The notes under the pieces are model-generated. The model saw nothing but the letters and a program-made list of their open reading frames with translations. It searched no databases and was not told the DNA's origin. A stretch of DNA of 64,000 nt, taken from positions 1-64,000 of IMG/VR virus record IMGVR_UViG_3300027754_000047; one strand, 5' to 3'. Source of the DNA: a virus. Positions 26,763-51,112 of the stretch are shown in pieces. Made by a program: the position numbers and the translations under genes. Each line of letters begins with the position of its first letter. The stretch's first letter is position 1.

Positions 26763-26820
26763 CGATATAAGCTTGAGGTGTTTAAGGGTAAAATAGTTTA
26801 ACTTTAACCCCAATAAAATA

Positions 26821-32500: not shown

Positions 32501-35500
32501 AACCAGGCTGCTAGTCTATTAATGTGGCTAGAGATTACTCTCAGGCCATAACTAGGATTCCAAGCTGCATTTTGGTGGAGCTTAGTCTTTGGCAGTGTGC
32601 AGAATATTCCTAGAGAGGCCAAAATATCTACCAGTCTATCTCTCATTAACAAACTAGCAGTCCAAGCTTGTAGCTGTACGGCTCCATTAGTATCTGAGTG
32701 TAAGCAACCATCTCCAGACATGTAGCCTTGGATTAGGCCCTTACGAAACTCTACTGAGCGGAGCATAGTTTGCTCAGAGGGAGCCTTAGCGCCACTACCG
32801 TGTCCAAACTCTTGCCGCAGCCAAGTAGCGGTTTGCTTACAGGTAAAAGAGGCTTTACCTGTACTAACAGCATTGACGTGAACTTTAAACCCAAGTGTAG
32901 TCAAAAGGATATTAAGCTCTGCTTGCCGAGCTGCTGGTTGAGCGGCCAGTACTACTAAGTTTGGCTGACTTGCAGGTATGTGGCCCTCTGCTAAGTATAA
33001 TCCTGCCAATAAGCCCCAAGCATGAGTATCGTGATCCATGGTGCTGCAGGCGCCTAAGGTCATTCCTACTACAGGCAGTCGAGTTACGCCTACCTCACAG
33101 TCAGCTGGATATATGGGCACTAACTCTCCGGAGTCTCCTAGCGTAACTAAGGAGTGATCCTCAGTAGTAACCACTTGACGGCCAGATAGTGTAGTAGTCA
33201 GCACCAGGCGCTTAGTGTTAGGGATCTTAGCAAACCCTGTGATAGGCTCCCAAGCTGCCGCCTTAGTGTCCAGATTAATGGATCTTATTAGATCCCCTGA
33301 CTCTTGCTGATAGTCTTGGGCGGCTACTTGCTGAATTACTCCAGTTGCTCGTTTGATCCAAACTTTGGTAGCTCCGGCAACACACTTACGGTTAAAAGGA
33401 AAGTTGTTGTACAATTCGTACCGCTTCTTATCCTTGCCGTGCTTAACCTCAATGTAGTCTGCTGTTACATCGGTAACCAAACCTGCACCTAAAGCCGCAT
33501 CTGCTCTTACAGCACCTAAATAGGCTGATACTCCATCTTCGAAAGATTTACCTTCAGCATCGTTGGGATCCAGAGCTTGCACTAATGGTGCTTCTGCTTG
33601 CTGTAAAGGTAACGCTTGAGTGAAGTACTTTGAACCCATTAATAAGCGGCCACCCTTAATACCGGAAATACCAGGTACTAGGTTGGAGTTTAAATTAAAC
33701 ATGTTGGCATAGCTTGGTACCTCGTACTGTACAGCCTCAGGCTCTACGTAAGAGATCTTACCATTAACCATAGCTCGTACTGGGTCGCCGGTTCGTAAAG
33801 CCCTAGCAAGCTCGCCTGGAAAAGCTACAACAGCATCGGTAACAGTTCTAGCAGGTATTTGTTCAATCTTACCTGTTTGGATATTCTTCATCTTAGAGTA
33901 GATCTGGCCGTCAGAACCCTTTAAAGCTCCAATGGTTAATCTAAGATCTACACCTACTTGAGAAGATTCTGGAGTGCGTACTGGATCAATAAAGCCTAAG
34001 TGACTTGGTTGAACGGAGCGGGTATCTACAGGAATACCGTGGGCAGCAGAACCAATACCACCTTCGCCGGTGCGAATGACTCTAAGGTTCTGATCCAGAA
34101 TTTCCATTGGATTAACTTCTTCAATGGGCGCACCTAAACCCGAACCCATTAACACTCCACTAAGTACCGGAGTAAACACGCCGTTTCTAAATGCTTGTAA
34201 ATTGCCTTTATTGGTAGCCTTAAAAAGGGCACCACGTAAAGCACCTCCAGCATCTTTAACTATTCGCTCTGCAAAGAAATCCTCAGGGCCATAGAAACGT
34301 TGATAAGTTAAGGCATCGCGATCATCTACATCTTCGCTGCCCTTTTGAGCATTCAAAACCTTTTGACTAGCTCTTAGTAAGGTGCTGCCGGTAACTCTAG
34401 TTAAGTCTTCTTCGTTTAACTGAATGTGATCATTGCTTGCCTCAAAGTTAAACATAGGCTCAGTTGATTTAACTGGATCCATTAAACCGTTTAAATCGTC
34501 AAAGCCTGCTACCTTTACTCCGACAGCTAATCTAAAGCCACCTGTAGGCTTAGGATCTAATAATAAACTGCGGCGAAACTGCTCTAGTTCCGGACAATCA
34601 ATATCGATGCACCATTCTCCGTTATTAGGAGGTAAGACCTGGCGAACAATATAAGTGAAGCGCCGGCCATTACCGCAAGTAGCTTCAAACTTAGACTTAA
34701 AAAGCTTCTTTAGCTTTTTAATTTCTTCAGAAGTAATTACCACTAAACGGCCTTTGTCTTCTACTGGCGAGATACCTGGAGCATTATCTCCGTCTCTTAA
34801 AGCGTAGTAGACTCCGGTAACCATACCTGCAGGTACGGTGATATAACCTTCGGATTCTAATTTAAGGGTACCCCTCATAGGCACCGCTGCAGTCTTAACG
34901 CGAGCTCCTAAAGTTCTAGCTACTACTTCTTTATTAAGCTCAGTGTTATATAGGGCTGTACGAATACCTTCATACAGGTCAGGCTCACTTATGCCACTAG
35001 ATGGATTACTAGTAAGCCGCTCATATATACGAGCAGCATCATAAGGAGATGATGCTCTATTGTTAGCAAAAATCTCTTTGCCCCAGCTACGCTCAAGTAC
35101 CTCGTCTGGTACTCCGTAAGCCTTAAGCATAGGATATAGTGGCGCAACTGATTGACCAATTTCGGTAACAAACTTACCGGTATCTGGCATGAAGGCAACT
35201 CTAAAGCCTCGACCCTTACCCGGTAAGGTATTAAAGTGAGCTTCGTATTCACCCGACTTACGCTTACGTACATAAGCGCCGGGCAACAACCTAGCTTGAT
35301 TGGCTACAGTGTATTCGCTGCCTGCGTTTATAAAAGTGCCTCTGTTGGTTAAGTAAGGCACTCGAGCTAAAGTTAATGATCTATCTGTCTTATCTAGTAC
35401 AGCTCCGGTGGCTATATCTCGCATAACCAGCTTACCCTTTAACGGGTAATACAAACTTTGATTCTGCATCAAGGCTTGCTGTTGCTCTTTTAAACTGTAA

Positions 35501-35691
35501 TCTTCCGACTTACCATAACGCAAGTCAGTCAACTCCACTCTGTAGCGGGTATTTTGTAAAGGAAACTTAGCTGCTACTGCAGTAAAAACATTATCAAAGA
35601 TGTTTTTACGTGTAGCTGTGTAGTCGCTAAAGCCTCTAAGAGTTGGAGCTTGTGGTTGGATTAGGGCGTTTAAATCGTCCTCAGTAGCCAT
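29554..35691 (-). CDS. Fused RNA polymerase beta + N-terminal beta' protein with intein (2045 aa)
   Basis: Multisubunit-type RNA polymerase. Beta features in order: VPYLTNRGTFINAGSEYTVA (about 110-130), FIDPVRTPESSQVGVDLRL, the intein (770-1177), ALAMGKNLKVAYMIW, SNFEDGVVVSAS, GDKLVGRYGDKGVIS (about 1370) and NPLALVTRVNPVQAVEAALG. Beta' features follow: GEVKSPKDIDFRTGKAVDGG, MPVLPPRFRPI and the catalytic NADFDGDQM (DFDGD 1951-1955). The chain ends 90 residues later (RNLLSASTMKAHNF..). The bridge helix and trigger loop of beta' are absent and must be encoded elsewhere. Spliced length is 1637 aa. Position among virion-like proteins suggests a virion-packaged enzyme. Confidence 0.93.
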   Translation of the reverse strand: MATEDDLNALIQPQAPTLRGFSDYTATRKNIFDNVFTAVAAKFPLQNTRYRVELTDLRYGKSEDYSLKEQQQALMQNQSLYYPLKGKLVMRDIATGAVLDKTDRSLTLARVPYLTNRGTFINAGSEYTVANQARLLPGAYVRKRKSGEYEAHFNTLPGKGRGFRVAFMPDTGKFVTEIGQSVAPLYPMLKAYGVPDEVLERSWGKEIFANNRASSPYDAARIYERLTSNPSSGISEPDLYEGIRTALYNTELNKEVVARTLGARVKTAAVPMRGTLKLESEGYITVPAGMVTGVYYALRDGDNAPGISPVEDKGRLVVITSEEIKKLKKLFKSKFEATCGNGRRFTYIVRQVLPPNNGEWCIDIDCPELEQFRRSLLLDPKPTGGFRLAVGVKVAGFDDLNGLMDPVKSTEPMFNFEASNDHIQLNEEDLTRVTGSTLLRASQKVLNAQKGSEDVDDRDALTYQRFYGPEDFFAERIVKDAGGALRGALFKATNKGNLQAFRNGVFTPVLSGVLMGSGLGAPIEEVNPMEILDQNLRVIRTGEGGIGSAAHGIPVDTRSVQPSHLGFIDPVRTPESSQVGVDLRLTIGALKGSDGQIYSKMKNIQTGKIEQIPARTVTDAVVAFPGELARALRTGDPVRAMVNGKISYVEPEAVQYEVPSYANMFNLNSNLVPGISGIKGGRLLMGSKYFTQALPLQQAEAPLVQALDPNDAEGKSFEDGVSAYLGAVRADAALGAGLVTDVTADYIEVKHGKDKKRYELYNNFPFNRKCVAGATKVWIKRATGVIQQVAAQDYQQESGDLIRSINLDTKAAAWEPITGFAKIPNTKRLVLTTTLSGRQVVTTEDHSLVTLGDSGELVPIYPADCEVGVTRLPVVGMTLGACSTMDHDTHAWGLLAGLYLAEGHIPASQPNLVVLAAQPAARQAELNILLTTLGFKVHVNAVSTGKASFTCKQTATWLRQEFGHGSGAKAPSEQTMLRSVEFRKGLIQGYMSGDGCLHSDTNGAVQLQAWTASLLMRDRLVDILASLGIFCTLPKTKLHQNAAWNPSYGLRVISSHINRLAAWFCYQDRNEKLNSLTSLSFRAATFDGIPVTQASRVLAYAGTGATTPHSVYKTATAGSYIQRHRIKSGVLKPWADSDVMWDTVVSITKAEPAAYVYDFEVASSQVFAVDCGLLVHNTYIHNTAGVKLGDQVKPGQLLAKSNYTDANGALAMGKNLKVAYMIWGDEELGGSNFEDGVVVSASAAKKMSSEHMYTVGYDNKDDYTADYNKFISLFPGQYSKDQLKQMDSTGVIKPGTVVNPGDPIILGVGERKSDTFGLVKKSRPSFTNRAQTWEHSQPGVVTDVTPTRTGWQVAIKSYKPMTAGDKLVGRYGDKGVISAVIEDSDMPQDKAGAAYEVIYNPLALVTRVNPVQAVEAALGKLAAQTGVPYKMPAFIDGSLIDFAQAELKKARVSDTETIFDPRLNKNIDNVFTGTRYFMNLHHQAEGKLSGRDTGGYSNEEAPVKGGSEGAKRIGIADVNSLLAHGAIEVLKDARLIRGQKNDEYWRAVKAGTPVPNVAVPFVWDKFVAQLKGAGVNVQRQGGIINIYGMTNSDVKAMSGGEVKSPKDIDFRTGKAVDGGFFDEKIFGVNQSSFGHFPLAAKVVNPVMEDAVRSLTGLTQKDFEAVVSGEDVKGIKGMAGLTAYLHNYDIPSQQAAAKKEMATAKGQKRSNAITKLAYLDGMAKRKIDPSEFLWDSMPVLPPRFRPITDTGSMQMVADMNFLYKELYSMNSNLKELQTELGADSTGKEQLALYRMVKATVGLTDPASAKLKQKNVNGLIRHLLGSNPKFSMFQRKVLSSTVEGVGNAVIAPDPSMDMDHVGVPEDMAFTVFRPYIIRALTAAGSSPIEAMKQVENKTDSARRALLYEMEKRPVLITRAPVLHKYNFMAAKPVLTTGNTMRMSPSVVVGFNADFDGDQMRLHVPSSAGAVKEAYDRMLPSRNLLSASTMKAHNFIKNEFLYGLFLASRKGADKNNVKSFRTKDDVIRAFNRGEIDATDTVKIVGGVG
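32161..33384 (-). other. LAGLIDADG intein inside RNA polymerase (408 aa)
   Basis: Begins at Cys770 (FNRK|CVAGATKVWI) and ends at Asn1177 with block G LLVHN followed by Thr1178 as the C-extein nucleophile. Block B is TTEDHSLVTLG. DOD motifs LLAGLYLAEG (about 895) and LIQGYMSGDG (about 990) give a two-motif homing endonuclease. Block F is VYDFEVASSQVFAVDCG. Removing it joins FNRK to TYIHNTAGVKLGDQVKPG, the conserved beta segment ahead of the LALGxN strand. Intein removal appears necessary for activity. Confidence 0.93.
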
Positions 35692-42502: not shown

Positions 42503-43960
42503 TCAGTCTCGCAACGCAGCAGGGCTGCGGCGGCGAATCTGAGGCACTTGTTGAACTTCTTCCGGCAAGTTGTACTCATGCGCTGCCACCTCAATGGCCT
42601 GGGCCAAGATAGTAGCAGCCTTTTCTCGCTCCGAGTTATGAGTCCTCGGTGCTCGGTTTACCAGCTTCAGCTGAAGGCGCATAGCCTCGAAGGCCTCCAT
42701 GATGTCCTCTGGCAACACCACGTTGCGGTCTGCTAGTTGAGCAAGAATAGCGGCTGCAACGCCGATCTGCACCACGGTGCTTGGGTTCTGGTGCCCGCAA
42801 GTCTGCAGCTTGTCTAACCAAGTGTTGGTGTCCACTTTGGTGGTCAAATTACAAACTCTACCCAACAAACGCAGGCTAGCTTCTGGAGCTAAAGGCTCCA
42901 TCTCAATCAAGCTATTCATTCTGCCTGGTCGAAGGAATACAGGCAGAATGCGCTCGGTATCGTTGACCGTAAAGATGGTCATCAACGAGCGACCCTTGGT
43001 GCTGACGCCGTCCAGGACGTTCGTCAAGTTGTCTTGGCGAATGGTACGCTCATCGTTCTCGGACTCCATCAAACGATTCACGTCTTCCACTACTAGGATG
43101 GCCGGTTCATACTGCTGAGCCCACTCGTTACCAAACTCAAGATCGCGAGCATCTTTGATGAAGATGCAAGTGATGCCTCGGCTGCTTGCTTCGGCCATTA
43201 CTGCATTTACCAAAGCAGACTTACCGGTACCGTAACCGCCAACCAACATGTGGTTGGATTGAAAACGGACTGCACCTGCTGCGCCCTTCAACACATCTTG
43301 CCGGCGCAAACGCTGCAAGATTTGCGTGTTGATTCGCTTCTCTGTTGCAGGGTTGAAGACCAGGTCTTCGAGGACTCCCTTGCAGTCCTCGTATTTTGCC
43401 ACGTGTCGCGCATGGTTGAAGGCAGTCCCTTCACCTCTACGGTAAGGGAACTCAATTGAAACAATCGTCCCCTTCACCTTAGAGTGAATGCCGGTTGCGA
43501 TGTTTCCTCGCAACGTTGCTTCAAACTGCTCCACAATGCGAGTCAACAGGCCAGGTGCTTTAATGCGCAACCGCAAGTAAGGCTCGTCTGTGTATTCTGC
43601 TTGCTCCAGGCTGGCCTGGATGCTTATGTTGTATTTTCCACCGTCTTCAGCAGAGACGACTTTTAATTCAATCCAACTGCCGATTGGCACTTGCACTGTC
43701 TGACCCTTATTTTGGATAGACAGTTTGCTTGCCCCTGCAGGGACTATCGGAACGCAATCCAACTGGTGGATTGTTGCCCAATAGCTTAGAAGGGCATCTT
43801 CGAAGTAAATGCCCGTCAACTGCACATATGTGTTGACCATTTCTTCTTGGCTGGCCACGTATGCCGCCAATGCTGCTGATGTTGCCTTCAGGCCAAAGCC
43901 TGTTGGCGCCTGAACCCCAATGTGGTTCGGGGTATGCTGCTGAAACTTGACTTCATTCAT
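42503..43960 (-). CDS. AAA+ ATPase (485 aa)
   Basis: Walker A GGYGTGKSALVNA (about residue 240), Walker B AILVVEDVNRLME (about 285), sensor 1 TIFTVNDTERILP and an arginine-finger-type LRPGRMNSLIEME place it in the CDC48/Vps4/FtsH-like AAA clade. The N-terminal 220 residues are unique and could be a substrate-recognition domain. No protease follows. Likely an unfoldase or remodeller; a role in virion assembly or host takeover is open. It has its own promoter (44013-44046). Confidence 0.85.
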   Translation of the reverse strand: MNEVKFQQHTPNHIGVQAPTGFGLKATSAALAAYVASQEEMVNTYVQLTGIYFEDALLSYWATIHQLDCVPIVPAGASKLSIQNKGQTVQVPIGSWIELKVVSAEDGGKYNISIQASLEQAEYTDEPYLRLRIKAPGLLTRIVEQFEATLRGNIATGIHSKVKGTIVSIEFPYRRGEGTAFNHARHVAKYEDCKGVLEDLVFNPATEKRINTQILQRLRRQDVLKGAAGAVRFQSNHMLVGGYGTGKSALVNAVMAEASSRGITCIFIKDARDLEFGNEWAQQYEPAILVVEDVNRLMESENDERTIRQDNLTNVLDGVSTKGRSLMTIFTVNDTERILPVFLRPGRMNSLIEMEPLAPEASLRLLGRVCNLTTKVDTNTWLDKLQTCGHQNPSTVVQIGVAAAILAQLADRNVVLPEDIMEAFEAMRLQLKLVNRAPRTHNSEREKAATILAQAIEVAAHEYNLPEEVQQVPQIRRRSPAALRD

Positions 43961-44012
43961 CTCGGATTTTTCCTCTGAAAAGACATTTTATCAATATCAA
44001 TATGAACCGCCT

Positions 44013-44046
44013 ATGTATATTAACCAATATTAGGGGCTAATTTAAC
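44013..44046 (-). promoter_or_regulatory. Phage promoter upstream of the AAA+ gene
   Basis: Minus-strand read: TTAAATTAGCCCCTAATATT, GG, TTAATATACAT. It follows the terminator at 44069-44102 and its TTTAGCTATT tail. About 50 bp upstream of the start at 43960. Matches the recurring element family. Confidence 0.65.
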
Positions 44047-44068
44047 AAACATAAATAGCTAAAGAAAT

Positions 44069-44102
44069 AGCCGGGACCAAGGGTTTCCCCCTGATCCCGG
44101 CT
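44069..44102 (-). terminator. Hairpin terminator after the 98-aa gene
   Basis: AGCCGGGA and TCCCGGCT form the outer stem. On the minus strand it is followed by ATTTCTTTAGCTATTTATG. It ends the transglycosylase operon. Confidence 0.8.
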
Positions 44103-44112
44103 ACGAAATGAA

Positions 44113-44409
44113 TCATTCAGCACAATGCACTAGCGAAAATGCTAGTGCATATGCAGCTGGCGCTGCCACCGGGGCCCAATAAGCCCTTACTTCGGTTATG
44201 ACATACACCATACTGGATCTCTTTCCATCCCGCAGGTGGTGCCTGTCCAAGATAACCTCATATCGATCATCCAGGATGTCGTCCAACCTGTCTGCTGTCT
44301 TTACCAACAACCCTAGCTTGCAGCAGGGAGACGCGCCCTGGTTGTTACCCACCGCTATGTAGCGGTGTAGTGGCTCCATCAATAGAAGCGTAGGCGTATC
44401 CGTTGTCAC
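44113..44409 (-). CDS. Hypothetical protein (98 aa)
   Basis: GTG start (44407-44409) overlaps the transglycosylase stop, with CTGGAGGCACC as ribosome binding site. Contains LVKTADRLDDILDDRYEVIL and a hydrophobic tail (AAPAAYALAFSLVHCAE). No domain recognised; it is translationally coupled to the lytic enzyme. Confidence 0.6.
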   Translation of the reverse strand: MTTDTPTLLLMEPLHRYIAVGNNQGASPCCKLGLLVKTADRLDDILDDRYEVILDRHHLRDGKRSSMVYVITEVRAYWAPVAAPAAYALAFSLVHCAE

Positions 44410-44822
44410 GGTGCCTCCAGTGCAGCCTGCACCTTGGCCCAATAACCCAAGGTAGCATTCTTGCGGTGCCCCTTAGGGCCGCCGTTATGCTGCCTTGCCA
44501 GCACTTCCATGCTCGCGTTCTTCGGCGCATAGCGCCGAAGGTAGGCCTTTACCACTTTCGTGGCGTAGGCCTTATCCTTACAATCGGCATACGTGCCGCC
44601 GATTGATTTGTCATACTGGGTCGCGTCAACCCAGTATGCCTTATGGATTTGGTAAGGCCCAATAGCCTTACCTTTGTCTCCGACCGCATTCGCGGGGTCG
44701 GCTTCGCCGCCAGTCTCCACCTGGCAAATGGCCTGGACTAATCGGTCCAGGTCGATGTCACTCACTTGCGCCTTCGCCTGGCTACAAGCCAAGGTAAGGA
44801 CAACCAATAAGATTCGGAGCAT
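44406..44822 (-). CDS. Exported lytic transglycosylase/lysozyme-like enzyme (138 aa)
   Basis: Residues 1-18 (MLRILLVVLTLACSQAKA) are a signal peptide. The mature part has the SLT/goose-lysozyme-like core: AICQVETGGEADP with catalytic Glu36, AIGPYQIHKAYW, and ARQHNGGPKGHRKNATLGYW. It should cleave peptidoglycan glycan strands in the periplasm, so it is a candidate endolysin or ejection muralytic enzyme. Start is behind AAGGGAGTAACGAA-ATG. Confidence 0.85.
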   Translation of the reverse strand: MLRILLVVLTLACSQAKAQVSDIDLDRLVQAICQVETGGEADPANAVGDKGKAIGPYQIHKAYWVDATQYDKSIGGTYADCKDKAYATKVVKAYLRRYAPKNASMEVLARQHNGGPKGHRKNATLGYWAKVQAALEAP

Positions 44823-44863
44823 TTCGTTACTCCCTTTCTTGTTTGTTGTTTCCGTGCAAATCC

Positions 44864-45541
44864 CTACGGAACGTCCGTAGGGTTACAAATTTGTTGTTTC
44901 TTTCGCGGGGCGCGAATACGGCGCACGCAACCCTTACGCCATCTAGCAGCAGTTGCCTTGCCGTCAAGGTTAACCCAGCTGTAGCTATTATCTTGCGCTT
45001 GCACTGCTTTACCTACTTCCCGCAGGGCTTCGTTGCTAAGCATGCAAATGTATCCTTTGGACCCGTCGATTCTTACTGCAACTTGTTTTTGCATCAGGTC
45101 CTCAATGTACAAAGCCTCTAACACCCAGCGCTGGTCTGGGTAAAGGTGAGCTTGATCTAACAGCTCTTTCAATTCCTCTTTATGAGGAACCTTTTTGGCT
45201 TGAGGGTCCCAAACGCATTTTGTTTTCATTTCGCTCAGCACCTTAACTGCATCAAAAGACAAAAACTTAGGCCTAGTTCGGTAATGAGTTCCTTGCCTAC
45301 CGTAAGTTTTTCGTATTAGGTCCTTCACGCAAAAGATGCTTTTGCGGGGAGCGAAGCTTAAATCTTTACCCACCCCCATTAGTTGCATGATGGCGTCATG
45401 GGCTGCTGATTCCGCATCCACTAAGGGGTCGTCTACTCGGCCTACTCTTTTAAGGTACTTCCGGCAAAGAAAGCAGCTTATGCGAATAGCCTTTTTGATA
45501 TTAGCCTCGGAATAATCTGGGGCTTCTATTACTGCTTCCAT
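44864..45541 (-). CDS. Sigma-factor-like protein (225 aa)
   Basis: The middle (DAESAAHDAIMQLMGVGKDL, then IRKTYGRQGTHYRTRPKFLS) resembles region 2, and YPDQRWVLEALYIEDLMQKQ followed by VAVRIDGSKGYICMLSNEAL resembles region 4 helix-turn-helix, the order of ECF-type sigma factors. The C-terminus is very basic (RWRKGCVRRIRAPRKKQQIC). It could direct host or phage RNA polymerase to phage promoters. Homology is weak by eye, so another DNA-binding role is possible. Confidence 0.55.
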   Translation of the reverse strand: MEAVIEAPDYSEANIKKAIRISCFLCRKYLKRVGRVDDPLVDAESAAHDAIMQLMGVGKDLSFAPRKSIFCVKDLIRKTYGRQGTHYRTRPKFLSFDAVKVLSEMKTKCVWDPQAKKVPHKEELKELLDQAHLYPDQRWVLEALYIEDLMQKQVAVRIDGSKGYICMLSNEALREVGKAVQAQDNSYSWVNLDGKATAARWRKGCVRRIRAPRKKQQICNPTDVP

Positions 45542-45714
45542 TTGAGTACCGTTCTAGAGACTATGTACAGTCCTGCTAAAACAGTGCCACAAGTGATTAT
45601 GTAGCGGCCTGTAATTGCGTCGCCTTTTAGGGCTTCGATTACTCCTGCAGCTACGGGAGCTACGGCCACCCAGAACTCTGTAGTCCGAGTGCCTGATTTC
45701 ATAGTTGGGTCCAT
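45529..45714 (-). CDS. Small two-pass membrane protein (61 aa), holin-like
   Basis: Start behind GGTAAGGCTCCAA-ATG. Two hydrophobic stretches (FWVAVAPVAAGVIEAL and YIITCGTVLAGLYIVSRTVL) with a short loop (KGDAITGR) and a basic C-terminus KWKQ. This class II-holin-like topology and the nearby muralytic enzyme make a lysis role plausible but unproven. The 3' end overlaps the sigma-like gene. Confidence 0.65.
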   Translation of the reverse strand: MDPTMKSGTRTTEFWVAVAPVAAGVIEALKGDAITGRYIITCGTVLAGLYIVSRTVLKWKQ

Positions 45715-45776
45715 TTGGAGCCTTACCGCGTTGCGGCATTAAGAGTGTATCTTATTGCCTAACTCGGCTATGAAAA

Positions 45777-45808
45777 GACCCCTTGATCCAATTAAGAATC
45801 AAAGGGTC
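45777..45808 (-). terminator. Hairpin terminator downstream of tRNA-Met
   Basis: GACCCCTTGAT and ATCAAAGGGTC form the stem around an AT loop. On the minus strand it is followed by TTTTCATAG. A second hairpin (GGGGCACTT/AAGTGCCCC, 45825-45854) stands just upstream. Confidence 0.75.
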
Positions 45809-45893
45809 CTTGAGGAGAAAGAAAGGGGCACTTAGGTTTAATCCCAAGTGCCCCCATTGGGGGAAAAGATGCAGTTGCCTTTTTCAAGGTGAA

Positions 45894-45967
45894 TGGACCG
45901 GGTGGGATTCGAACCCACGCCTTATCGATTATGAGTCGACGGCTCTAGACCACTGAGCTACCAGTCC
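45894..45967 (-). tRNA. tRNA-Met-type tRNA (CAU)
   Basis: Acceptor GGACTGG/CCGGTCC (one G-T pair), D arm GCTC..GAGC, anticodon stem GTCGA/TCGAT with loop CTCATAA (anticodon CAU), T arm GTGGG-TTCGAAT-CCCAC, discriminator A, no CCA. CAU could be elongator Met or, if C34 is modified to lysidine, Ile (AUA). The sequence does not decide. Confidence 0.92.
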
Positions 45968-45976
45968 AAGGTAAGG

Positions 45977-46093
45977 CTTTAACTAAGCTGCTGTTCATGG
46001 AATTCCAGGATTCTTTGGACTTTTAAATCCATAAGGCGTAAATCCCGGTCTTGTCGTAGGTTTTCTCTACGCTCTAGGGCAGCTTAGTTAAAG
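45977..46093 (-). ncRNA. Candidate structured RNA closed by a 15-bp stem, upstream of tRNA-Met
   Basis: CTTTAACTAAGCTGC (45977-45991) and GCAGCTTAGTTAAAG (46079-46093) are perfect complements. The enclosed 87 bases hold smaller helices (CGTAG/CTACG around 46056-46072 and TGGA/TCCA around 46016-46031). It sits 10 bp upstream of the tRNA and has no ORF. Multi-branched, tRNA-sized overall. It may be a degenerate tRNA-like element or a processing leader. Confidence 0.55.
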
Positions 46094-46151
46094 GGGTCAG
46101 GCTGAGGAGCGCTGTACTCAACTCAGCCTAATTCAGTACGATTGTTAGTCG

Positions 46152-46175
46152 TATATCATTATAACCCGTTTATGC
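46152..46175 (-). promoter_or_regulatory. Possible promoter with GTTATAATGA (tRNA-Met transcript)
   Basis: Minus-strand GGGTTATAATGATATACG contains a perfect -10 hexamer TATAAT. The same GTTATAATGA occurs upstream of the 73-aa gene (46461-46480). These look like a second, host-sigma-type promoter class, without an obvious TTGACA at -35. Confidence 0.5.
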
Positions 46176-46192
46176 TAAATTTTTAGCTTTAA

Positions 46193-46414
46193 TTAGTCAG
46201 ATAAATCTTCATCTTCTATTAGCAATTCCAAATCTAATTCACTATTTTTATTTTGTAAATCAGGGAAACTAATGTTGGTACTCGTTTGGCTAGGCTTATT
46301 TGCTAAGTTATTGGAGTAATCAATCTGAGCTTGGGTGTAGTCTGATTGTTTAACGTATGAGGTTGACAGTATTGCCTTGTACGAAATTAGTGTTTCTTTT
46401 TTACGACGACCCAT
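46193..46414 (-). CDS. Hypothetical acidic protein (73 aa)
   Basis: Start MGRRKKETLISYKAILSTSY behind AACAGGTGCAAA. Basic N-terminus, Asn/Ser-rich middle and very acidic C-terminus (LDLELLIEDEDLSD). No domain recognised. Possibly a disordered regulator or host-protein mimic. Confidence 0.6.
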   Translation of the reverse strand: MGRRKKETLISYKAILSTSYVKQSDYTQAQIDYSNNLANKPSQTSTNISFPDLQNKNSELDLELLIEDEDLSD

Positions 46415-46460
46415 TTTGCACCTGTTAGCTAAATGAAGAGCTCTAATGAGTTCTTTCTAA

Positions 46461-46480
46461 GTCATTATAACTTATTTTTA
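46461..46480 (-). promoter_or_regulatory. Possible promoter with GTTATAATGA (73-aa gene)
   Basis: Minus-strand TAAAAATAAGTTATAATGAC shares the TATAAT context with the site at 46152-46175. It is about 46 bp upstream of the start at 46414. Confidence 0.5.
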
Positions 46481-46496
46481 CCGAATGTTTAGTGGC

Positions 46497-47156
46497 TTAA
46501 AGTTGCATAGTTTCGACAAAAGGATTGCCATCAATGACTACTCCACAAGCTATAATAGGCTTTTTAAGAAAAGCTGCACCGTATTGCATAGCCCAATGGT
46601 TGCGATCCACTCCGCAACCAATGTTCATACCCCATACTTTAGCTGTTGGCCCTGCTTGATACCAGACTCCACAAGCTGAGTGATAGTGCCCTAATACCGT
46701 AGATTGCATTCGCAACTTGGCTGCATTGAATGCGGGTTGTTGGCCTCCGGCTCCTTCGCCGTGGTAGTAGTAGACTCCGTCGATTTCAACGTTATCTACC
46801 CATTTCCAACTATGAGTGTCGTATAAGGAGTTGAACTCCTTTAAGTAAAGCCTAGGAATTCCTAGTTTAGCGTTTAATCGAAGTACTCTTAGATCATGAT
46901 TACCTACAGTTATGCTTGCTGTAGGGAATGCTTCGTATAGTTGTTTAACTTGCTTACAAGCCAAGTCGTATTCTAATGCTGCTCCAGGATTCTCTGGGTG
47001 CTTATCGTGAAAAGATATGCAATGATGGTCAACAACGTCTCCAATATGTACTACCTTATCTATACGCCAACGTTTAGCAACTGCCTTTAAAAAGGGAATA
47101 TATTTGCGATGCATGGCTGGGGCGTGGGTGTCCCCGATTACTAATACTCTGCTCAT
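46497..47156 (-). CDS. Calcineurin-like phosphoesterase (219 aa)
   Basis: Full two-metal signature: VIGDTHAP (Asp9, His11), HIGDVVDHH (Asp40), VGNHDLR (Asn86-Asp88), YYHGEG and GHYHSACG. This is a complete metallophosphoesterase domain for its size. Substrate unknown; phage relatives act on nucleotides, nucleic-acid ends or protein phosphates. Start follows GGAGCCTAA. TTGACAGTAT lies about 20 bp upstream. Confidence 0.88.
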   Translation of the reverse strand: MSRVLVIGDTHAPAMHRKYIPFLKAVAKRWRIDKVVHIGDVVDHHCISFHDKHPENPGAALEYDLACKQVKQLYEAFPTASITVGNHDLRVLRLNAKLGIPRLYLKEFNSLYDTHSWKWVDNVEIDGVYYYHGEGAGGQQPAFNAAKLRMQSTVLGHYHSACGVWYQAGPTAKVWGMNIGCGVDRNHWAMQYGAAFLKKPIIACGVVIDGNPFVETMQL

Positions 47157-47263
47157 TTAGGCTCCAAAGTAAGTGGATACTGTCAACTTATTGTTAGCTA
47201 AGGGCGCAGAGTAAGCAGGTAAGGTACCGGTGTCAAGTTTAGGCTATTGATAGCTAAAAGAAT

Positions 47264-47285
47264 GTGTAGGGTGGAACCCCTACAC
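47264..47285 (-). terminator. Hairpin terminator after the wHTH gene
   Basis: GTGTAGGG and CCCTACAC pair across a short loop. On the minus strand it is followed by ATTCTTTTAGCTATC, again the conserved tail. A second hairpin (GAACCTGT/ACAGGTTC, about 47299-47328) stands between the gene stop and this terminator. Confidence 0.75.
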
Positions 47286-47342
47286 ACTCCCTTTGATTGA
47301 ACCTGTAAACCCGTTAGCAAACAGGTTCAAGTCCAAGCCAGG

Positions 47343-47717
47343 TTATCGCATTAACATAATGCGATCATTAATGATTTTGATCTTGCGCTTGTTAACAAGC
47401 CTTCGTAGGCGTTGGCCGATTTGCTGGCGGCTGAGACCTGCCTCAACTGCCGCCAGGTATATTTTTTGTTTCAGTACTACTCCTTCGGGGTCGCTGAGCT
47501 CACGCACTATCTTTAGCACTCCTGCCTCCAGGGGTTCTCCTTCCTTTGCCTTTTTTGGAGGCTTTGGAGGTGAGAACAAAGACTGCTTGGGCCCATCCAA
47601 TGTGGGGCTAACTTTGATGTCTAGGCTCCAACCGGAGCCGACGGCCGCAGTGTGTAGGGCTTCGGCTAATTGTACAATCTCTTTCAGTCTGGCAAACGGA
47701 CCTTTTATATCTTTCAT
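47343..47717 (-). CDS. Putative winged-helix DNA-binding protein (124 aa)
   Basis: ATG at 47715-47717 (MKDIKGPFARLKEIVQLAEA). The C-terminal 60 residues (VLKIVRELSDPEGVVLKQKI, AAVEAGLSRQQIGQRLRRLV, NKRKIKIINDRIMLMR) look like a winged helix-turn-helix with recognition helix SRQQIGQRLRRL. The N-terminal half has a Pro/Lys linker. A transcriptional regulator role is inferred. Confidence 0.65.
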   Translation of the reverse strand: MKDIKGPFARLKEIVQLAEALHTAAVGSGWSLDIKVSPTLDGPKQSLFSPPKPPKKAKEGEPLEAGVLKIVRELSDPEGVVLKQKIYLAAVEAGLSRQQIGQRLRRLVNKRKIKIINDRIMLMR

Positions 47718-47772
47718 AACAACGGGTTTCCTAAAAGCCCTCGGTAGACGCGTACCTTGGGTAAAATGACAA

Positions 47773-47805
47773 CCGCCCTTACACACTACAAGTATGCAAG
47801 GGCGG
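47773..47805 (-). terminator. Hairpin terminator after the kinase gene
   Basis: CCGCCCTT and AAGGGCGG stem with a 17-base loop. On the minus strand it is followed by GTTGTCATTTTACCC. It separates the kinase gene from the wHTH gene. Confidence 0.65.
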
Positions 47806-47823
47806 GGCGTCGAATGTTTGTTT

Positions 47824-48231
47824 TTAACCCACAAAGCGTGGGTCGTGGTGTTCCCAACGGCCAGCCATCTGCTGGACCTTCTCCGCAGGGCAACCGTGGG
47901 TGTTTGACCAGCTGTTTTCACAGTGTACAACGAATACACTGTAGCCATACTTAGCGGCCAAACTAAGGTACGCCTCGTAGTCTCGCCTCACTACTGAGGT
48001 GTTAGCTACGGCCAAGCGGGGCCAATCAGCCCTCATTGCAGTAGTCACTTGCTCTTCGCACCACCGATGAGCTAGACTAAGCTTGGTGTAGTCGAATAGG
48101 TACTCTCCTGTTTCGTTCAGGAAATACTTATCCGCCTCAAAGGCGGGGCACGACAAATCCAGTGAAGCAGCCAAGCTGCTTTTACCTGAACCGGGCAACC
48201 CTCTGATAACGTACAAGATCTTTTGATTCAT
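47824..48231 (-). CDS. P-loop kinase of the AAA_33 / polynucleotide-kinase-like type (135 aa)
   Basis: Walker A GLPGSGKSS at residues 11-19, FEADKYFLNETGEYLFDYTK (lid and acceptor-side Asp), VANTSVVRRDYEAYLSLAAK and NTHGCPAEKVQQMAGRWE. This is the pattern of small NEDD4BP2/PNK-like kinases found in phages, which phosphorylate 5' ends of RNA/DNA or small substrates. No phosphatase domain is fused. Start has AAAAGGAGGAAGAA upstream. Confidence 0.82.
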   Translation of the reverse strand: MNQKILYVIRGLPGSGKSSLAASLDLSCPAFEADKYFLNETGEYLFDYTKLSLAHRWCEEQVTTAMRADWPRLAVANTSVVRRDYEAYLSLAAKYGYSVFVVHCENSWSNTHGCPAEKVQQMAGRWEHHDPRFVG

Positions 48232-48298
48232 TTCTTCCTCCTTTTAGCTGTGCTTTAGGCTTAACGCAAACCTAATTTTTAATGGTAACACAGTTCAC

Positions 48299-48336
48299 AT
48301 GTTATATTCACACAATAGGTGGGCTATTTTAATAGC
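48299..48336 (-). promoter_or_regulatory. Phage promoter-like element upstream of the kinase gene
   Basis: Minus-strand read: TTAAAATAGCCCACCTATTG, TGTGAATATAACAT. It directly follows the tail of the 48342-48364 terminator. Weaker match to the consensus. Confidence 0.5.
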
Positions 48337-48341
48337 TAAAT

Positions 48342-48364
48342 AAGGACCCCGGTTAGGGGTCCTT
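48342..48364 (-). terminator. Hairpin terminator after the 148-aa membrane gene
   Basis: AAGGACCCC and GGGGTCCTT stem with a short loop. On the minus strand it is followed by ATTTAGCTATTAAAAT. Confidence 0.8.
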
Positions 48365-48385
48365 GGGTCTCAAAAGCCCCTGTGT

Positions 48386-48832
48386 TTAGCTACCAGACTG
48401 CACGAAGATCGTTTCTCCTGCAGCTCCCGCTGCCTTTCCTGCAACACCCGCCGTCTTGTCCACCGCCTCCTGAGGAGGAGCTTTCATTCCCTCATCGGCG
48501 GGCCGTCGGTCCCTATTGGCCTGGGACCGGGCCTTGTCGTCCTCTTCAGAATTCTTGGCCTTCTTCCTGTCCATCACTTCGTTCGCCTTGGCTTCCACCA
48601 TTGGGGTGGAAGCAACCAGCATGCCGAGCGCGGCGAAGGCCAACGTCGTGATCGTGGCCATGCCGTTGAAGCCGGCCACCACCATCGAGCGGGTTTCATC
48701 CATGGACCAAGTCCACGGAAATAACCAGCTTTCCCCGCTAGCAGGGACCAAAGCGTCTCCGCCGCCAATGGCAACGAAGAAGAGAATCGACACAACCGCG
48801 TAGGGCATAAAGCCCCAGAAGAACTTCTTCAT
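48386..48832 (-). CDS. Two-pass membrane protein with charged tail (148 aa)
   Basis: Two transmembrane helices (FMPYAVVSILFFVAIGGG and GMATITTLAFAALGMLVAST) enclose a Trp/Pro/Asp-rich periplasmic loop (SWLFPWTWSMDETRS). The C-terminal 60 residues are charged and then Ala/Gly-rich (GVAGKAAGAAGE). GC-rich codon use differs from neighbours. A structured leader (48841-48915) and its own promoter precede it. Function unknown; envelope-located. Confidence 0.7.
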   Translation of the reverse strand: MKKFFWGFMPYAVVSILFFVAIGGGDALVPASGESWLFPWTWSMDETRSMVVAGFNGMATITTLAFAALGMLVASTPMVEAKANEVMDRKKAKNSEEDDKARSQANRDRRPADEGMKAPPQEAVDKTAGVAGKAAGAAGETIFVQSGS

Positions 48833-48840
48833 TCGAAGTT

Positions 48841-48915
48841 CCTTTCCGGGGTATTACCCCTAGTAGTCGCTTACTTGTAGTCAGGATTACGCACCCAACA
48901 GCAAGTATCGCTACT
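48841..48915 (-). promoter_or_regulatory. Structured 5' leader, copy 1
   Basis: Reading on the minus strand from the promoter: GTAGCGATACTTG, a GGGTGCGTAATCC loop region, CAAGTAAGCGACTAC, then the hairpin GGGGTAATACCCC and GGAAAGGA as ribosome binding site. The same order of elements recurs at 50120-50203. Probably a cis-acting RNA control element, possibly folding to expose or mask the ribosome binding site. Confidence 0.65.
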
Positions 48916-48916
48916 T

Positions 48917-48967
48917 ATATATATATACCGCAAAAGGGGGTCTATTTTAGTCCCTCAATACTGTCAA
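48917..48967 (-). promoter_or_regulatory. Phage promoter, copy 1
   Basis: Minus-strand read: TTGACAGTATTGAGGGA, CTAAAATAGACCCCC, TTTTGCGG, TATATATATA. It lies between the terminator of the structured RNA and the leader of the 148-aa membrane gene. Confidence 0.75.
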
Positions 48968-48979
48968 CCTTTAATAGCT

Positions 48980-49478
48980 AAAAAGAACGATCCTTATGGC
49001 CCCGAAGGGTGGCAAGGATCGTTCTATAGCTGTTGCGGTGTTTCTGCAGAAACCTTGACAACAGCTAGTTATTGTTCCGGAACCTCCGGGCATGGCTTAC
49101 TAACACCTCTTCGTCCTGCCGCAACCTACTGATCTTGTAGGTCGCTTTAGTTATCCCCTCGCAAGGGGGGCGGTTTACGAGGGACAACCCAACTCTCGTT
49201 GGATTTCTAGGTAGGCTCTCGTCCCCTAGACATACCCACTCCAGTTTTATTAGAGTAGGCTGTTAATAGGTCCCTCACAGGTATGGGACCAACCTTGACT
49301 AGCCTCCGTTGCCACGGGGCGCTGCTCTTTTGCCGAGCCAGCATTAAAGTCGAACCTAAATGGAGTGTACAGCTCCAGTGCTACCGGGGGTATTTATTCC
49401 GGTAAGCTGCTAACCCACCAGTTAGGTAGGTCATACGGTAGGTACCGTAGGGCCCTATATATTGCTATATAGAGCTTA
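48980..49478 (-). ncRNA. Large highly structured noncoding RNA candidate (about 500 nt)
   Basis: It has its own promoter (49480-49525) and intrinsic terminator (48985-49024), and no credible ORF. The minus-strand sequence folds into many local helices: CTATATA-GCAA-TATATAG, TACCGG..CCGGTA, GGTCCC..GGGACC, TCTAGG..CCTAGA, CCAAC-GAGA-GTTGG, GACCTAC..GTAGGTT and GCTGTTG..CAACAGC enclosing GTTTC-TGCA-GAAAC. GNRA-type tetraloops recur. It is comparable in size and ornateness to phage GOLLD/ROOL-type RNAs, but I cannot match it to one. Confidence 0.7.
48985..49024 (-). terminator. Terminator of the large structured RNA
   Basis: GAACGATCCTT and AAGGATCGTTC pair perfectly around a GC-rich loop. On the minus strand it is followed by TTTTTAGCTATTAAAGG. 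Confidence 0.88.
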
Positions 49479-49479
49479 T

Positions 49480-49525
49480 GTATTATACCCCAAAAAGGAG
49501 GTTATTTTAGCCTTACCTTGATACC
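49480..49525 (-). promoter_or_regulatory. Phage promoter for the large structured RNA
   Basis: Minus-strand read: AGGTATCAAGGTAAGG, CTAAAATAACCTCC, TTTTTGGGG, TATAATAC. It follows the terminator at 49534-49562 directly. Confidence 0.65.
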
Positions 49526-49533
49526 TAAAAAAA

Positions 49534-49562
49534 GCCCCCCAACTCCTTGCGGAGTGGGGGGC
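49534..49562 (-). terminator. Strong terminator after the 175-aa secreted gene
   Basis: GCCCCCCAACTCC, TTGC loop, GGAGTGGGGGGC. On the minus strand it is followed by seven T. It isolates the secreted gene from the structured RNA. Confidence 0.92.
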
Positions 49563-49583
49563 ATCGTCCATGGTGGGGGGCCT

Positions 49584-50111
49584 TTAGCGGCTCCACCACC
49601 ATGCCAACTGATCAGACCATGAAGGATTGGTCAACCGCTGCACTCGCTGCTCGCTCGCAATCTGCTGTGCGATTGCAGCAGAGGTGGCCGATTTGTTTCC
49701 CATCGACGCCCTAACATGGATCGCCGCCGTCCACGCCGGGATGCGGACGTAGTCAATTCCAGCAGCCTGCGCCACCCACGCATCGTGGGTGGTTTGGACC
49801 GTCATGATTGCAGCGACGCCCAAGTCGGGCGTCACCTTCGTCGCCGCTTCTACAGCGGCGCAAGTGGAGGCTCCTGCCTCCACAATTCCTTCTGGGGTGG
49901 TGGTGCACTCCACCTTAAGATCCAGCTGCTTCTGCAGCTGCTGCTCTGCCTCACTCCAAGCTGCCTTGGTCTCCTGGATGGAGACCAGCATGGCTGCGGC
50001 CTTTGCCGCAACCTCCTCCGCCGTCGGCGCCTTAGCCGAAGGTGGAGTCGCTTGGCAAACGCCTCCGATGAAGAAGGCGATTGTACAAACGAGTGTTAGA
50101 AGAGTCTTCAT
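49584..50111 (-). CDS. Exported Ala-rich helical protein (175 aa)
   Basis: Residues 1-21 (MKTLLTLVCTIAFFIGGVCQ) form a signal peptide; GGVC gives a possible lipobox. The mature part is Ala/Glu-rich and helical with two further Cys and ends in a Trp cluster (SDQLAWWWSR). GC-rich codon use. It has the structured leader copy 2 and promoter copy 3. Putative periplasmic protein; role unknown. Confidence 0.7.
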   Translation of the reverse strand: MKTLLTLVCTIAFFIGGVCQATPPSAKAPTAEEVAAKAAAMLVSIQETKAAWSEAEQQLQKQLDLKVECTTTPEGIVEAGASTCAAVEAATKVTPDLGVAAIMTVQTTHDAWVAQAAGIDYVRIPAWTAAIHVRASMGNKSATSAAIAQQIASEQRVQRLTNPSWSDQLAWWWSR

Positions 50112-50119
50112 GAGACTCC

Positions 50120-50203
50120 TCCTTTCCGGGGTATTACCCCTTTAAGCTGTTGTTGACAGTATGAGCGGTTACGCAACCCTCATTATCAGCTACAACAGCC
50201 TTA
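50120..50203 (-). promoter_or_regulatory. Structured 5' leader, copy 2
   Basis: Minus-strand order: GCTGTTGTAGC, TGAGGGTTGCGTAACCGCTCA, ACTGTCAACAACAGC, then GGGGTAATACCCC and GGAAAGGAGGAG before the ATG. The outer stem GCTGTTG/CAACAGC closes an inner GGTT-GCGT-AACC hairpin. The architecture and the last 20 bases match leader copy 1, although the outer stems differ in sequence, which is compensatory-type evidence for structure. Confidence 0.65.
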
Positions 50204-50241
50204 GGTATATATACCTCAAAAAGGGGTCTATTTTAGCCCTA
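50204..50241 (-). promoter_or_regulatory. Phage promoter, copy 3
   Basis: Minus-strand read: GGGCTAAAATAGACCCC, TTTTTGAGG, TATATATACC. Its transcript would begin at the outer stem of the structured leader. Faces away from copy 4. Confidence 0.75.
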
Positions 50242-50368
50242 AAAAGGCCCTTTTAGGCCCTTTTAGGCCCTTTTAGGCCCTTTTAGGCCCTTTTAGGGCT
50301 ATTGACAGTTTTAGGCCCTTTTAGCCCTAAAAAGCCTCTTTTAGGCCCTTTTAGGCTCTTTTAGGCCT
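50236..50368. repeat. 10-bp phased repeat array GGCCCTTTTA
   Basis: GGCCCTTTTA recurs about five times end to end (50246-50297) and again as variants (GGCTCTTTTA, AGCCTCTTTT) to 50368. The unit length matches one DNA turn, and the array lies exactly between divergent promoters. Likely a protein-binding array (operator or iteron-like); it is not a CRISPR because there are no spacers. Confidence 0.85.
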
Positions 50369-50369
50369 G

Positions 50370-50418
50370 TTGACAGTATTAGGGGCTAAAATAGACCCCT
50401 TTTTGAGGTATATATACA
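50370..50418 (+). promoter_or_regulatory. Phage promoter, copy 4 (plus strand)
   Basis: TTGACAGTATTAGGGG, CTAAAATAGACCCC, TTTTTGAGG, TATATATACAT. The core is identical to copy 3 and faces the opposite way. It would transcribe the second structured RNA. Confidence 0.78.
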
Positions 50419-50419
50419 T

Positions 50420-50740
50420 ATGGCCGTTATAGCTATATATAAGAGCTTATCCATGTCGGAATGGCCTTTATAGCTATAACGAGCCAATATGTAGTAGTAC
50501 GTATTGGCAGTTGATCCCCCTCACCCCTTGCGGGGTGGTGCAGGTCGCTAACCCTAAGGGGGAGGCTATCCGGACAGGTACCTCCTACGGTGGGGCCTTA
50601 ACCCGACCTCCCCCCCGAAGTCTGGGGTCACGGTTGCAATGCGAAACCTCCACATGAAGGTGTGGAACACGGGAATCGCGCTTAAGCCTATTGGAAATAG
50701 GGTGAAGCAAAAACCCCCCTGAAATGGGGGCTTTTTTTTT
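50420..50740 (+). ncRNA. Second structured noncoding RNA candidate (about 320 nt)
   Basis: Bounded by promoter copy 4 and an intrinsic terminator, with no start codon in good context. Helices seen: CGTTATAGCTATA with TATAGCTATAACG (perfect), GCCAATA..TATTGGC, CACCCC-TTGC-GGGGTG, TCCACA..TGTGGA and CCTATT-GGA-AATAGG. Purine-rich junctions separate them. I do not recognise it as RNase P, tmRNA or 6S RNA. Confidence 0.65.
50713..50740 (+). terminator. Terminator of the second structured RNA
   Basis: ACCCCCCTGAAATGGGGGC stem-loop followed by nine T, then AGCTATTAAAGG leading straight into promoter copy 5. Confidence 0.9.
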
Positions 50741-50752
50741 AGCTATTAAAGG

Positions 50753-50804
50753 TTGACAGTATTAGGGGCTAAAATAAGGCTCCTTTTGAGGTATATATAT
50801 ATGT
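50753..50804 (+). promoter_or_regulatory. Phage promoter, copy 5 (plus strand)
   Basis: TTGACAGTATTAGGGG, CTAAAATAAGGCTCC, TTTTGAGG, TATATATATATG. It drives the 67-aa plus-strand gene. The leader begins GTAGAGGGTTT and has the hairpin CTAATTGATGG/CCATTAATTAG. Confidence 0.75.
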
Positions 50805-50880
50805 AGAGGGTTTAGACCTAATTGATGGGTGTTCCATTAATTAGAAACAAACCCTACTACTACTCTTGAAAGGAGTAGCC

Positions 50881-51084
50881 ATGTCAATAGTTTGGCAGCC
50901 GTCCTTACGGCATCCCAAATTCCAGGTCGTAAAAGACCTGGTCTTTGGAATCGTGGGAACAATGGACGGATGGGAAACCTCCTCCATTACTACCACGGAG
51001 CAGGCAGAGGCCCTGCTCCAGATCCCGGGGTGTCCCTTTGAGCAGGAGCTCAAGGAGATCATCAAGAAAGGAGTGAGCCCGTAA
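50881..51084 (+). CDS. Small hypothetical protein on its own transcript (67 aa)
   Basis: ATG at 50881 (MSIVWQPSLRHPKFQVVKDL) behind GAAAGGAGTAGCC. Compact acidic alpha/beta protein ending EQELKEIIKKGVSP. It is the only protein gene on the plus strand in this island, with a private promoter, structured leader and terminator that overlaps its stop. This suggests a strongly expressed regulator or inhibitor; no domain recognised. Confidence 0.72.
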   Translation: MSIVWQPSLRHPKFQVVKDLVFGIVGTMDGWETSSITTTEQAEALLQIPGCPFEQELKEIIKKGVSP

Positions 51085-51095
51085 GGGCTTTTTTT
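51076..51095 (+). terminator. Terminator overlapping the 67-aa gene stop
   Basis: AGCCC-GTAA-GGGCT followed by seven T and AGCTATTAAAG. The TAA stop codon is in the loop. Confidence 0.85.
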
Positions 51096-51112
51096 AGCTA
51101 TTAAAGTACCTA

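Follow-up and report, generated by a model that had tools for sequence, protein, structure and literature searches.

Five near-identical elements of ~40 bp stand between 48.9 and 50.8 kb of the window, the whole stretch of 64,000 nucleotides that we analyzed (positions 1 to 64,000 of the virus record IMGVR_UViG_3300027754_000047; hereafter G000). Our preferred reading, to which we assign a probability of roughly 0.5 on the sequence, is that they are promoters that depend on a phage sigma, give rise to abundant and stable monocistronic RNAs, and are probably transcribed by the phage's polymerase.

A two-box element with a fixed spacing

The five strong copies described in an earlier note were confirmed as 41-bp windows at +50382, +50765, -50240, -49514, and -48954, i.e., two on the plus strand and three on the minus strand. 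Upon scanning with a matrix built from four related phages of 45-66% GC and using reversed genomes as the control, we obtained 28-51 bits for these copies versus a maximum of 12.8 bits in the reversed G000 genome, while the four-phage conservation scan gave 0 reversed-genome matches above 8 bits. As a 99.8%-identical strain (L092, contig IMGVR_UViG_3300010885_035698) contains the same region, the cassettes are not an assembly artefact. The 41-bp identity among copies within one phage may in part stem from recent duplication.

The element consists of CTAAAA, exactly 17 bp, and TATAAT or TATATA (equivalently, TAAA-N15-nGGTATAT), and its spacer is itself conserved, with ..CC..TTTTGnGG within the 17 bp. 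All 17 sites in the alignment have TAAA, and 15 of these have the longer CTAAA. When searching G000 for [CT]TAAA[ACT]-N-TATA[AT][ATC], we found 10 matches at 17 bp, 7 of them at 46-51 kb, versus 0 at 15, 16, or 18 bp. The 17-bp peak recurred in the relatives G004 and G007, and two conserved boxes at a fixed ~17-bp spacing, as found in G000, G007, and G004, are what a sigma-dependent two-box promoter would show. Judging from sequence features, the elements are best read as two-box, sigma-type promoters with a -35 box CTAAAA, 17 bp, and a -10 box TATAAT/TATATA. The contrary claim, that the motif is not of the sigma type because TTGACA lies too far from the -10 block, was mistaken: the -35 position is held by CTAAAA at the canonical 17 bp and not by TTGACA, which stands further upstream in only three of the five copies. 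TTGACAGTATT was likewise ruled out as a component of the element, being present at three of the five copies and at 0 cassettes of the relatives, and hence strain-local.

Strong copies at one locus per phage

Strong matches to the matrix were found only in the interval between the metallophosphoesterase and portal genes, with five in G000, four in G007, eight in G004 (three of which lie outside the training set), and three in G005. In each of these four phages they are confined to one locus of 3-6 kb, a localization with a chance probability of 5e-6 to 3e-8 per phage, and both boxes are retained in the 66%-GC relative. Because the strong copies sit in one locus per phage in four phages, the proposal that the cassette defines a phage transcription system does not hold genome-wide; the matrix scan rules out a genome-wide phage promoter for the strong copies, and the element is, by this sequence evidence, a candidate local promoter class. 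In the distant RNA polymerase (RNAP)-encoding relatives that share this phage's sigma (G011, G012, and G016), the CTAAAA-17 peak was absent and a de novo dyad search did not find CTAAAA; the search returned TTGA-N19-TATAA sites in G016 instead.

The weaker copies listed in the earlier note fared unevenly in matrix scores. Those at 44.0 kb (44010..44050, minus strand; TTAAAT-17-TAATAT, 12.6 bits, behind a terminator at 44070 and upstream of an AAA-ATPase gene) and 26.7 kb (26728..26768, minus strand; GTAAAT-17-TAATAT, 10.8 bits) are plausible and match the grammar, with scores not above the best control matches, and the 48.3-kb candidate (7.1 bits) is ambiguous. The candidates at 12.4 kb (0.9 bits) and 40.8 kb (-2.5 bits; a 38-bp perfect inverted repeat) were ruled out. 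Missing from that list were two further two-box sites on the minus strand, namely an exact CTAAAA-17-TATAAT upstream of tRNA-Met (46158..46186), which is without the conserved spacer, and CTAAAC-17-TATAAT (46464..46492) upstream of a 73-aa gene (46193-46414).

Short units with leader hairpins and tailed terminators

Downstream of each strong copy come a 5'-terminal hairpin, one short open reading frame (ORF) or structured RNA, and usually a terminator with a TTTAGSTAT tail. A hairpin begins 0-7 nt from the predicted start at all 20 promoters of the four phages, a position that agrees with a start about 7 nt beyond the -10 box, and the leader hairpin family shows 5 pairs with compensatory change versus 0/500 shuffles.

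On the plus strand, predicted promoter A (50382..50422; CTAAAA at 50386, 17 bp, TATATA) precedes a putative structured non-coding RNA of ~325 nt (50420..50745; z -4.6), whose terminator (50711..50750) has a tail TTTAGCTATTAAA that continues into predicted promoter B (50765..50805). The unit of B is a 67-aa ORF (50881..51084) with the Shine-Dalgarno sequence AAGGAG, and its terminator (51072..51105, tail TTTAGCTATTAAA) is convergent with the portal gene, with no promoter behind it. On the minus strand, predicted promoter D (50200..50240), which diverges from A, precedes a 175-aa ORF (49584..50111) with a signal-peptide-like start and a C-terminal WWW motif; this ORF resembles by eye the same-locus ORFs of G004, G005, and G007, which tblastn did not find. 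The terminator of D's unit (49520..49565, tail TTTTTTTAGGTATC) continues into predicted promoter E (49474..49514; exact CTAAAA-17-TATAAT) of a second putative structured non-coding RNA of ~490 nt (48985..49478; z -6.7), which has no long ORF and whose terminator (48968..49025, tail TTTTTAGCTATTAAAGG) in turn continues into predicted promoter C (48914..48954). The unit of C comprises a 148-aa predicted membrane protein (48386..48832) and a terminator at 48338..48365 (tail TTTAGCTATTAAA). Neither structured RNA has an Rfam family, the Rfam search giving sub-threshold chance matches only, and a sequence link to the RNA of G004, G007, or G005 was unconvincing.

Hence, three of the five copies (48954, 49514, and 50765) agree with the notion of an element directly downstream of an intrinsic terminator, while 50240- and 50382+ are oriented divergently around AGGCCCTTTT repeats of 10 bp. 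An automated call confirmed the terminator tail TTTAGCTAT/TTTAGGTAT, placing it behind six terminators at 42-51 kb and, outside that range, behind no clear terminator except for one TTTAGCC at 102.9 kb. It also occurs at terminators that have no promoter behind them (42449- and 51093+).

The sequence shows the motif with its spacing, conservation, and confinement to one locus, the hairpins and terminators, and the genes for RNAP and sigma; promoter activity, start sites, the reader, and the stability and timing of the RNAs are our inference. In our model, a sigma-dependent multi-subunit RNA polymerase would fire each promoter to yield one short unit, in G000 either a small ORF (three cases) or a structured RNA (two cases), the transcript would start within a few bases of the strong 5'-terminal hairpin, which probably shields the RNA, and the unit would end at the intrinsic terminator extended by TTTAGSTAT. 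As the next promoter often stands directly behind that terminator, the units would form insulated modules.

Phage polymerase and sigma factor as the likeliest reader

The proposal that phage machinery reads the elements is well motivated. The window encodes a phage RNA polymerase that joins beta and an N-terminal portion of beta' in one fusion protein (29554..35691, minus strand; NADFDGD at residue 1949; Pfam matches Rpb2_6, Rpb1_1, and Rpb1_2), with an intein carrying a LAGLIDADG domain inside beta (residues 770-1177; 32161..33384, minus strand). The remaining part, beta'C, is found in relatives (Rpb1_5 in G003, G005, and G007), and G000 is without the genome part expected to carry it; a 623-aa neighbor (51113-52984) proved to be the portal, and a 385-aa gene after the RNAP had no RNAP match. 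A search for the T7-type single-subunit RNAP (PF00940) gave no match, with the control genomes also lacking a positive.

Outside the window, at 121665-122414 of the contig, lies a full-length conserved sigma of 249 aa with a group-3-like sigma2-sigma3-sigma4 make-up. It matches Sigma70_r3 and, over residues 62-241, the sigma70 superfamily; its profile matches are nearly all sigma families, and the top Foldseek matches of its predicted structure, a modest model with pLDDT 66, are sigma factors. All three domains were recognized, sigma2 chiefly through its profile and fold matches. Members of the group share 64-66% identity in this protein and are almost identical in the recognition stretch SPGRVSQLT, and the change of TRER to SPGR in region 4.2 relative to cyanobacterial SigA would fit an altered -35 preference. 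As a query in bacterial genomes, it found no relative. We consider this sigma, acting on the phage's own beta/beta' polymerase, the likeliest reader. Against this stands that an RNAP and sigma serving as the phage's main system predict strong copies before other operons, and none were found.

The confinement of strong copies to one locus would indeed suit a special regulon better than a main phage polymerase, and it is conceivable, if unlikely, that a host core polymerase taken over by the phage sigma reads the promoters while the phage RNAP serves others. Such appropriation of the host core is known from SPO1 gp28 and T4 gp55, and the sigma is conserved together with the promoters; set against this, the sigma accompanies the phage RNAP across the lineage, as far as distant relatives and Salmonella phage Arash.

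Direct reading by a host holoenzyme with a host sigma, of the sigma-28/FliA type or sigma-70, we regard as about equally unlikely. A sigma-70 promoter reads TTGACA-17-TATAAT, and the phage element shares the 17-bp spacing and a TATAAT/TATATA -10 box, whereas CTAAAA replaces TTGACA; TTGACA-17-TATAAT showed no enrichment at 17 bp in the G000 genome, while the distant relative G016 does have TTGA-type, sigma-70-like promoters. The sigma-28 consensus is TAAAGTTT-n11-GCCGATAA (PMC2859248), with TAAA at -35 and GCCGATAA at -10 (PMC8325347). The phage element places TAAA at the same 15 bp from its 8-bp -10 block, the sigma-28 (FliA/WhiG) register, and the phage sigma has a group-3 size and domain make-up, its Arash ortholog scoring best against FliA/WhiG. 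The -10 block is, by contrast, nGGTATAT (TATAAT-like) rather than GCCGATAA, and the phage spacer is conserved (CC..TTTTG). Neither host sigma class matches both boxes, since the CGATAA expected at -10 for sigma-28 and the TTGACA expected at -35 for sigma-70 are both missing there. The same composite moreover occurs in 45%- and 66%-GC phages, which probably have different hosts.

The reader or co-activator could also be a 225-aa sigma-region-4-like protein (44864..45541, minus strand), the candidate named in the earlier note, which matches Sigma70_r4 at E 6e-4 and lies 3-6 kb from the cassettes; we hold this to be very doubtful, since the protein had no relative in viral contigs or, by tblastn, in the collinear phages in which the promoters are retained, and as only region 4 was matched and no region 2 detected, it would probably not open a -10 box on its own. 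The sigma at 121665-122414 is the better candidate. That the elements serve recombination, replication, or packaging as AT-rich repeats, a reading favored by near-identical repeats adjoining the portal gene and by the extra AGGCCCTTTT repeats, is scarcely credible given that their orientation agrees with the downstream unit, that the boxes keep an exact 17-bp spacing, and that hairpin leaders, Shine-Dalgarno sites, and terminators are consistently placed. An N4-like single-strand hairpin promoter, suggested by the seemingly palindromic GGGG..CTAAAATAG..CCCC, was set aside because the relatives do not keep the G and C runs as pairs.

Relation to known phage transcription systems

Like phiKZ and AR9, the lineage combines a phage-encoded beta/beta' polymerase with what appears to be a phage-specific promoter class. 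Those phages use AT-rich, -10-only early motifs or late motifs of the AACA-(6N)-UA type, and recognizable sigmas have been assigned to jumbo phages without RNAPs (reviewed in PMC7598289). Our phages differ in having both a recognizable sigma and a strongly conserved -35 box, rather than a single AT-rich -10 or late AACA/TATG element with no -35. The multi-subunit RNAP-encoding Caudovirales (mReC; PMC7481178) are similar in being metagenomic tailed phages with a cellular-like beta and beta' detectable by ordinary profiles, as holds here for G000 and, through Rpb1_5, for its relatives; here, by contrast, beta and beta'N are fused, and some members carry an intein. The words sigma and promoter are absent from the text of the mReC paper. 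The closest isolate found is Salmonella phage Arash (OQ632216), which shares the fused beta/beta'N (gp206), a separate beta'C (gp216), and a core sigma (gp10, in the tail-gene block), while its RNAP identity is only ~32%; we found no DNA similarity to isolate phages, the cassette region being unmatched in the phage collection including Arash.

Returning to the phage sigma and polymerase as the reader, we tentatively suggest a tailed-phage lineage with a private beta/beta' core and sigma, whose holoenzyme would read a promoter with a FliA-like -35 and a sigma-70-like -10, reserved for a cluster of insulated transcripts that carry a hairpin cap and lie next to the portal gene, structured RNAs among them. 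With polymerase, sigma, and a conserved candidate promoter delineated together, one can directly test whether a viral polymerase of the cellular type depends on a sigma, and the cultivated relative Arash offers this option too. The predicted promoters also lead to structured RNAs without an Rfam family. Overall, this virus group may possess a private gene-reading system of its own, one that is amenable to laboratory tests.

A two-box element at one locus

The five strong copies claimed in the earlier note are present in the phage under study, G000, as 41-bp elements at +50382, +50765, -48954, -50240 and -49514 (promoters A to E), which align without gaps, roughly as RGGGCTAAAATAgacCCCTTTTTGaGGTATATATAcAT, with CTAAAA occupying the -35 position. 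The same promoter region recurs in a second strain, 99.8% identical to G000. TTGACAGTATT, proposed as the front part of the element, lies upstream of only three of the five G000 copies and of none in the relatives, and was dropped from it. Upon searching G000 for the dyad [CT]TAAA[ACT]-N-TATA[AT][ATC], we obtained 10 matches at a spacing of 17 bp and none at 15, 16 or 18 bp; remaining spacings gave 0-4 matches each, except for 7 at 19 bp, expected because TATATATA permits a two-base shift. The 17-bp dyad added two minus-strand sites absent from the original list, -46186 (an exact CTAAAA-17-TATAAT) and -46492, while TTGACA-17-TATAAT showed no enrichment in G000. Divergent promoters A and D are separated by AGGCCCTTTT 10-bp tandem repeats (50240-50370), with TTGACAGTTTT within.

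The window covers positions 1-64000 of an incomplete phage contig of 129,472 bp, whose nearest relatives are uncultivated phages: a single near-identical group (G007, 174.6 kb; G001; G006) and, outside it, G004, G003, G002 and G005 (183.5 kb, 66% GC). All are largely collinear with G000 and share 75-79% identity with it over the C-terminal portion of the RNA polymerase. The closest isolate found was Salmonella phage Arash (polymerase ~32%), and no isolate phage of the collection searched shared DNA with the cassette region.

Scanning each whole genome with a matrix built from 17 sites of four phages placed every strong match in the metallophosphoesterase-portal interval (G000, 5; G007, 4; G004, 8, of which 7 strong; G005, 3, plus two further matches scoring under 10). 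For a single phage, such localisation has a chance probability of 5e-6 to 3e-8, and in reversed genomes no match exceeded 8 bits. As training sites match their own matrix by construction, what counts is that strong matches are lacking elsewhere and that held-out G004 sites (-32986, -29482 and -28592) were recovered. All the proposed weaker copies score below the control maximum of 12.8; those at 44.0 kb (12.6) and 26.7 kb (10.8) fit the 17-bp grammar well, and those at 48.3 kb (7.1), 12.4 kb (0.9) and 40.8 kb (-2.5) do not. The 40.8-kb place is a perfect 38-bp inverted repeat with a 39-bp loop between divergent genes (40723-40837).

Predicted hairpin-led transcription units

Downstream of all 20 promoters, across four phages, a hairpin begins at a distance of 0-7 nt from the predicted start (energy, -13 to -46 kcal/mol; z relative to composition-shuffled sequences, -2.3 to -8.1), followed in most ORF-driving units by a Shine-Dalgarno site and start codon. 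In mRNA-type units of G004 and G007, the leader hairpins form the family GGATCTATAGGTATTCCAGCA..TGCTGGACCRCC..AACAATATAGATCC, in which both partners of five pairs have changed. Promoter B precedes a 67-aa ORF, C a 148-aa membrane protein, and D a 175-aa ORF with a signal-peptide-like start and C-terminal WWW. Promoters A and E head putative structured RNAs of 325 and 490 nt, which hold no long ORF, matched no Rfam family and have predicted folds much more stable than those of shuffled sequences (z -4.6 and -6.7). Corresponding to these by place only, a conserved ~230-nt structured RNA, 86% identical between G007 (L054:14972-15212, minus) and G004 (L079:12718-12951, minus), adjoins the portal gene, and is perhaps also present in G005 at the corresponding place. 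Units end at terminators whose T-tract runs on as TTTAGCTAT or TTTAGGTAT; because this tail also occurs behind terminators with no downstream promoter, it is part of the terminator.

Sigma factor and polymerase

The previously suggested reader, the sigma-like protein at 44864-45541, gave a weak region-4 match and has no relative in the promoter-sharing phages. A 249-aa protein (contig 121665-122414, minus) carries sigma-factor regions 2-3-4, and its predicted model best matches sigma factors. It is 64-66% identical within the group, near-identical in the recognition stretch. Orthologs occur in six RNAP-encoding contigs at a greater distance and in Arash (gp10), within the same tail-gene block. 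TRERIRQI of cyanobacterial SigA reads SPGRVSQL in the aligned phage protein. In E. coli sigma-70 these residues contact the -35 box, which leads one to expect an altered -35 box here.

The phage polymerase gene (29554-35691, minus; 2045 aa) fuses beta, with NADFDGD present in the product, to the N-terminal part of beta'. Its intein (residues 770-1177; 32161-33384, minus), inserted in beta at NRK/TYIHN with a LAGLIDADG domain, is shared among the relatives with G005 only. In G003, G005 and G007 a gene of its own encodes the remainder of beta'; its absence from G000 is expected, since the G007 copy lies outside the corresponding stretch and the G000 contig is incomplete.

Other features

The window also holds a group I intron (22323-22591, minus; RF00028, 59 bits) overlapping a predicted ORF (22307-23086), a long direct-repeat array at its left end (2630-3910; GGAGGGCTAACTAAAGCTAACGGAATGCAAGG... 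and ACTGC..GCAGT units), a 2177-aa protein with RCC1-like repeats, unusual for a phage (4276-10809, minus), and a Destabilase (i-type lysozyme-like) domain protein, possibly the endolysin (44406-44822, minus). Two separate genes (28400-29557; 39235-40668, minus) match one ~90-aa stretch of G007, a module shared in different contexts. The distant RNAP-encoding relative G016 (L101-L106) has about ten TTGA-N19-TATAA sites, several of which closely precede start codons; these may be sigma-70-like early promoters.

Discussion

We consider the elements to be promoters (probability about 0.9), probably read by a phage sigma with either core; for the polymerase itself we favour the phage core, at roughly even odds, given that sigma and phage RNAP co-occur. 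The element fits neither known class, its TAAA-N15-[8 bp] register being that of sigma-28 (PMC2859248; PMC8325347) and its -10 being sigma-70-like. Two-box sigma-type promoters are already known, and promoters of this polymerase lineage had no description in the literature searched, which took in only a minority of subscription papers. New are the composite box combination, restricted to a single locus in phages of 45-66% GC, the coupling of promoters to 5'-terminal hairpins and structured RNAs, and a recognisable sigma in a virus that also encodes a multisubunit RNAP; by contrast, a review (PMC7598289) places recognisable sigmas in jumbo phages that lack an RNAP of their own. The one-locus restriction is suggestive of a special regulon whose short RNAs would be abundant and stable.
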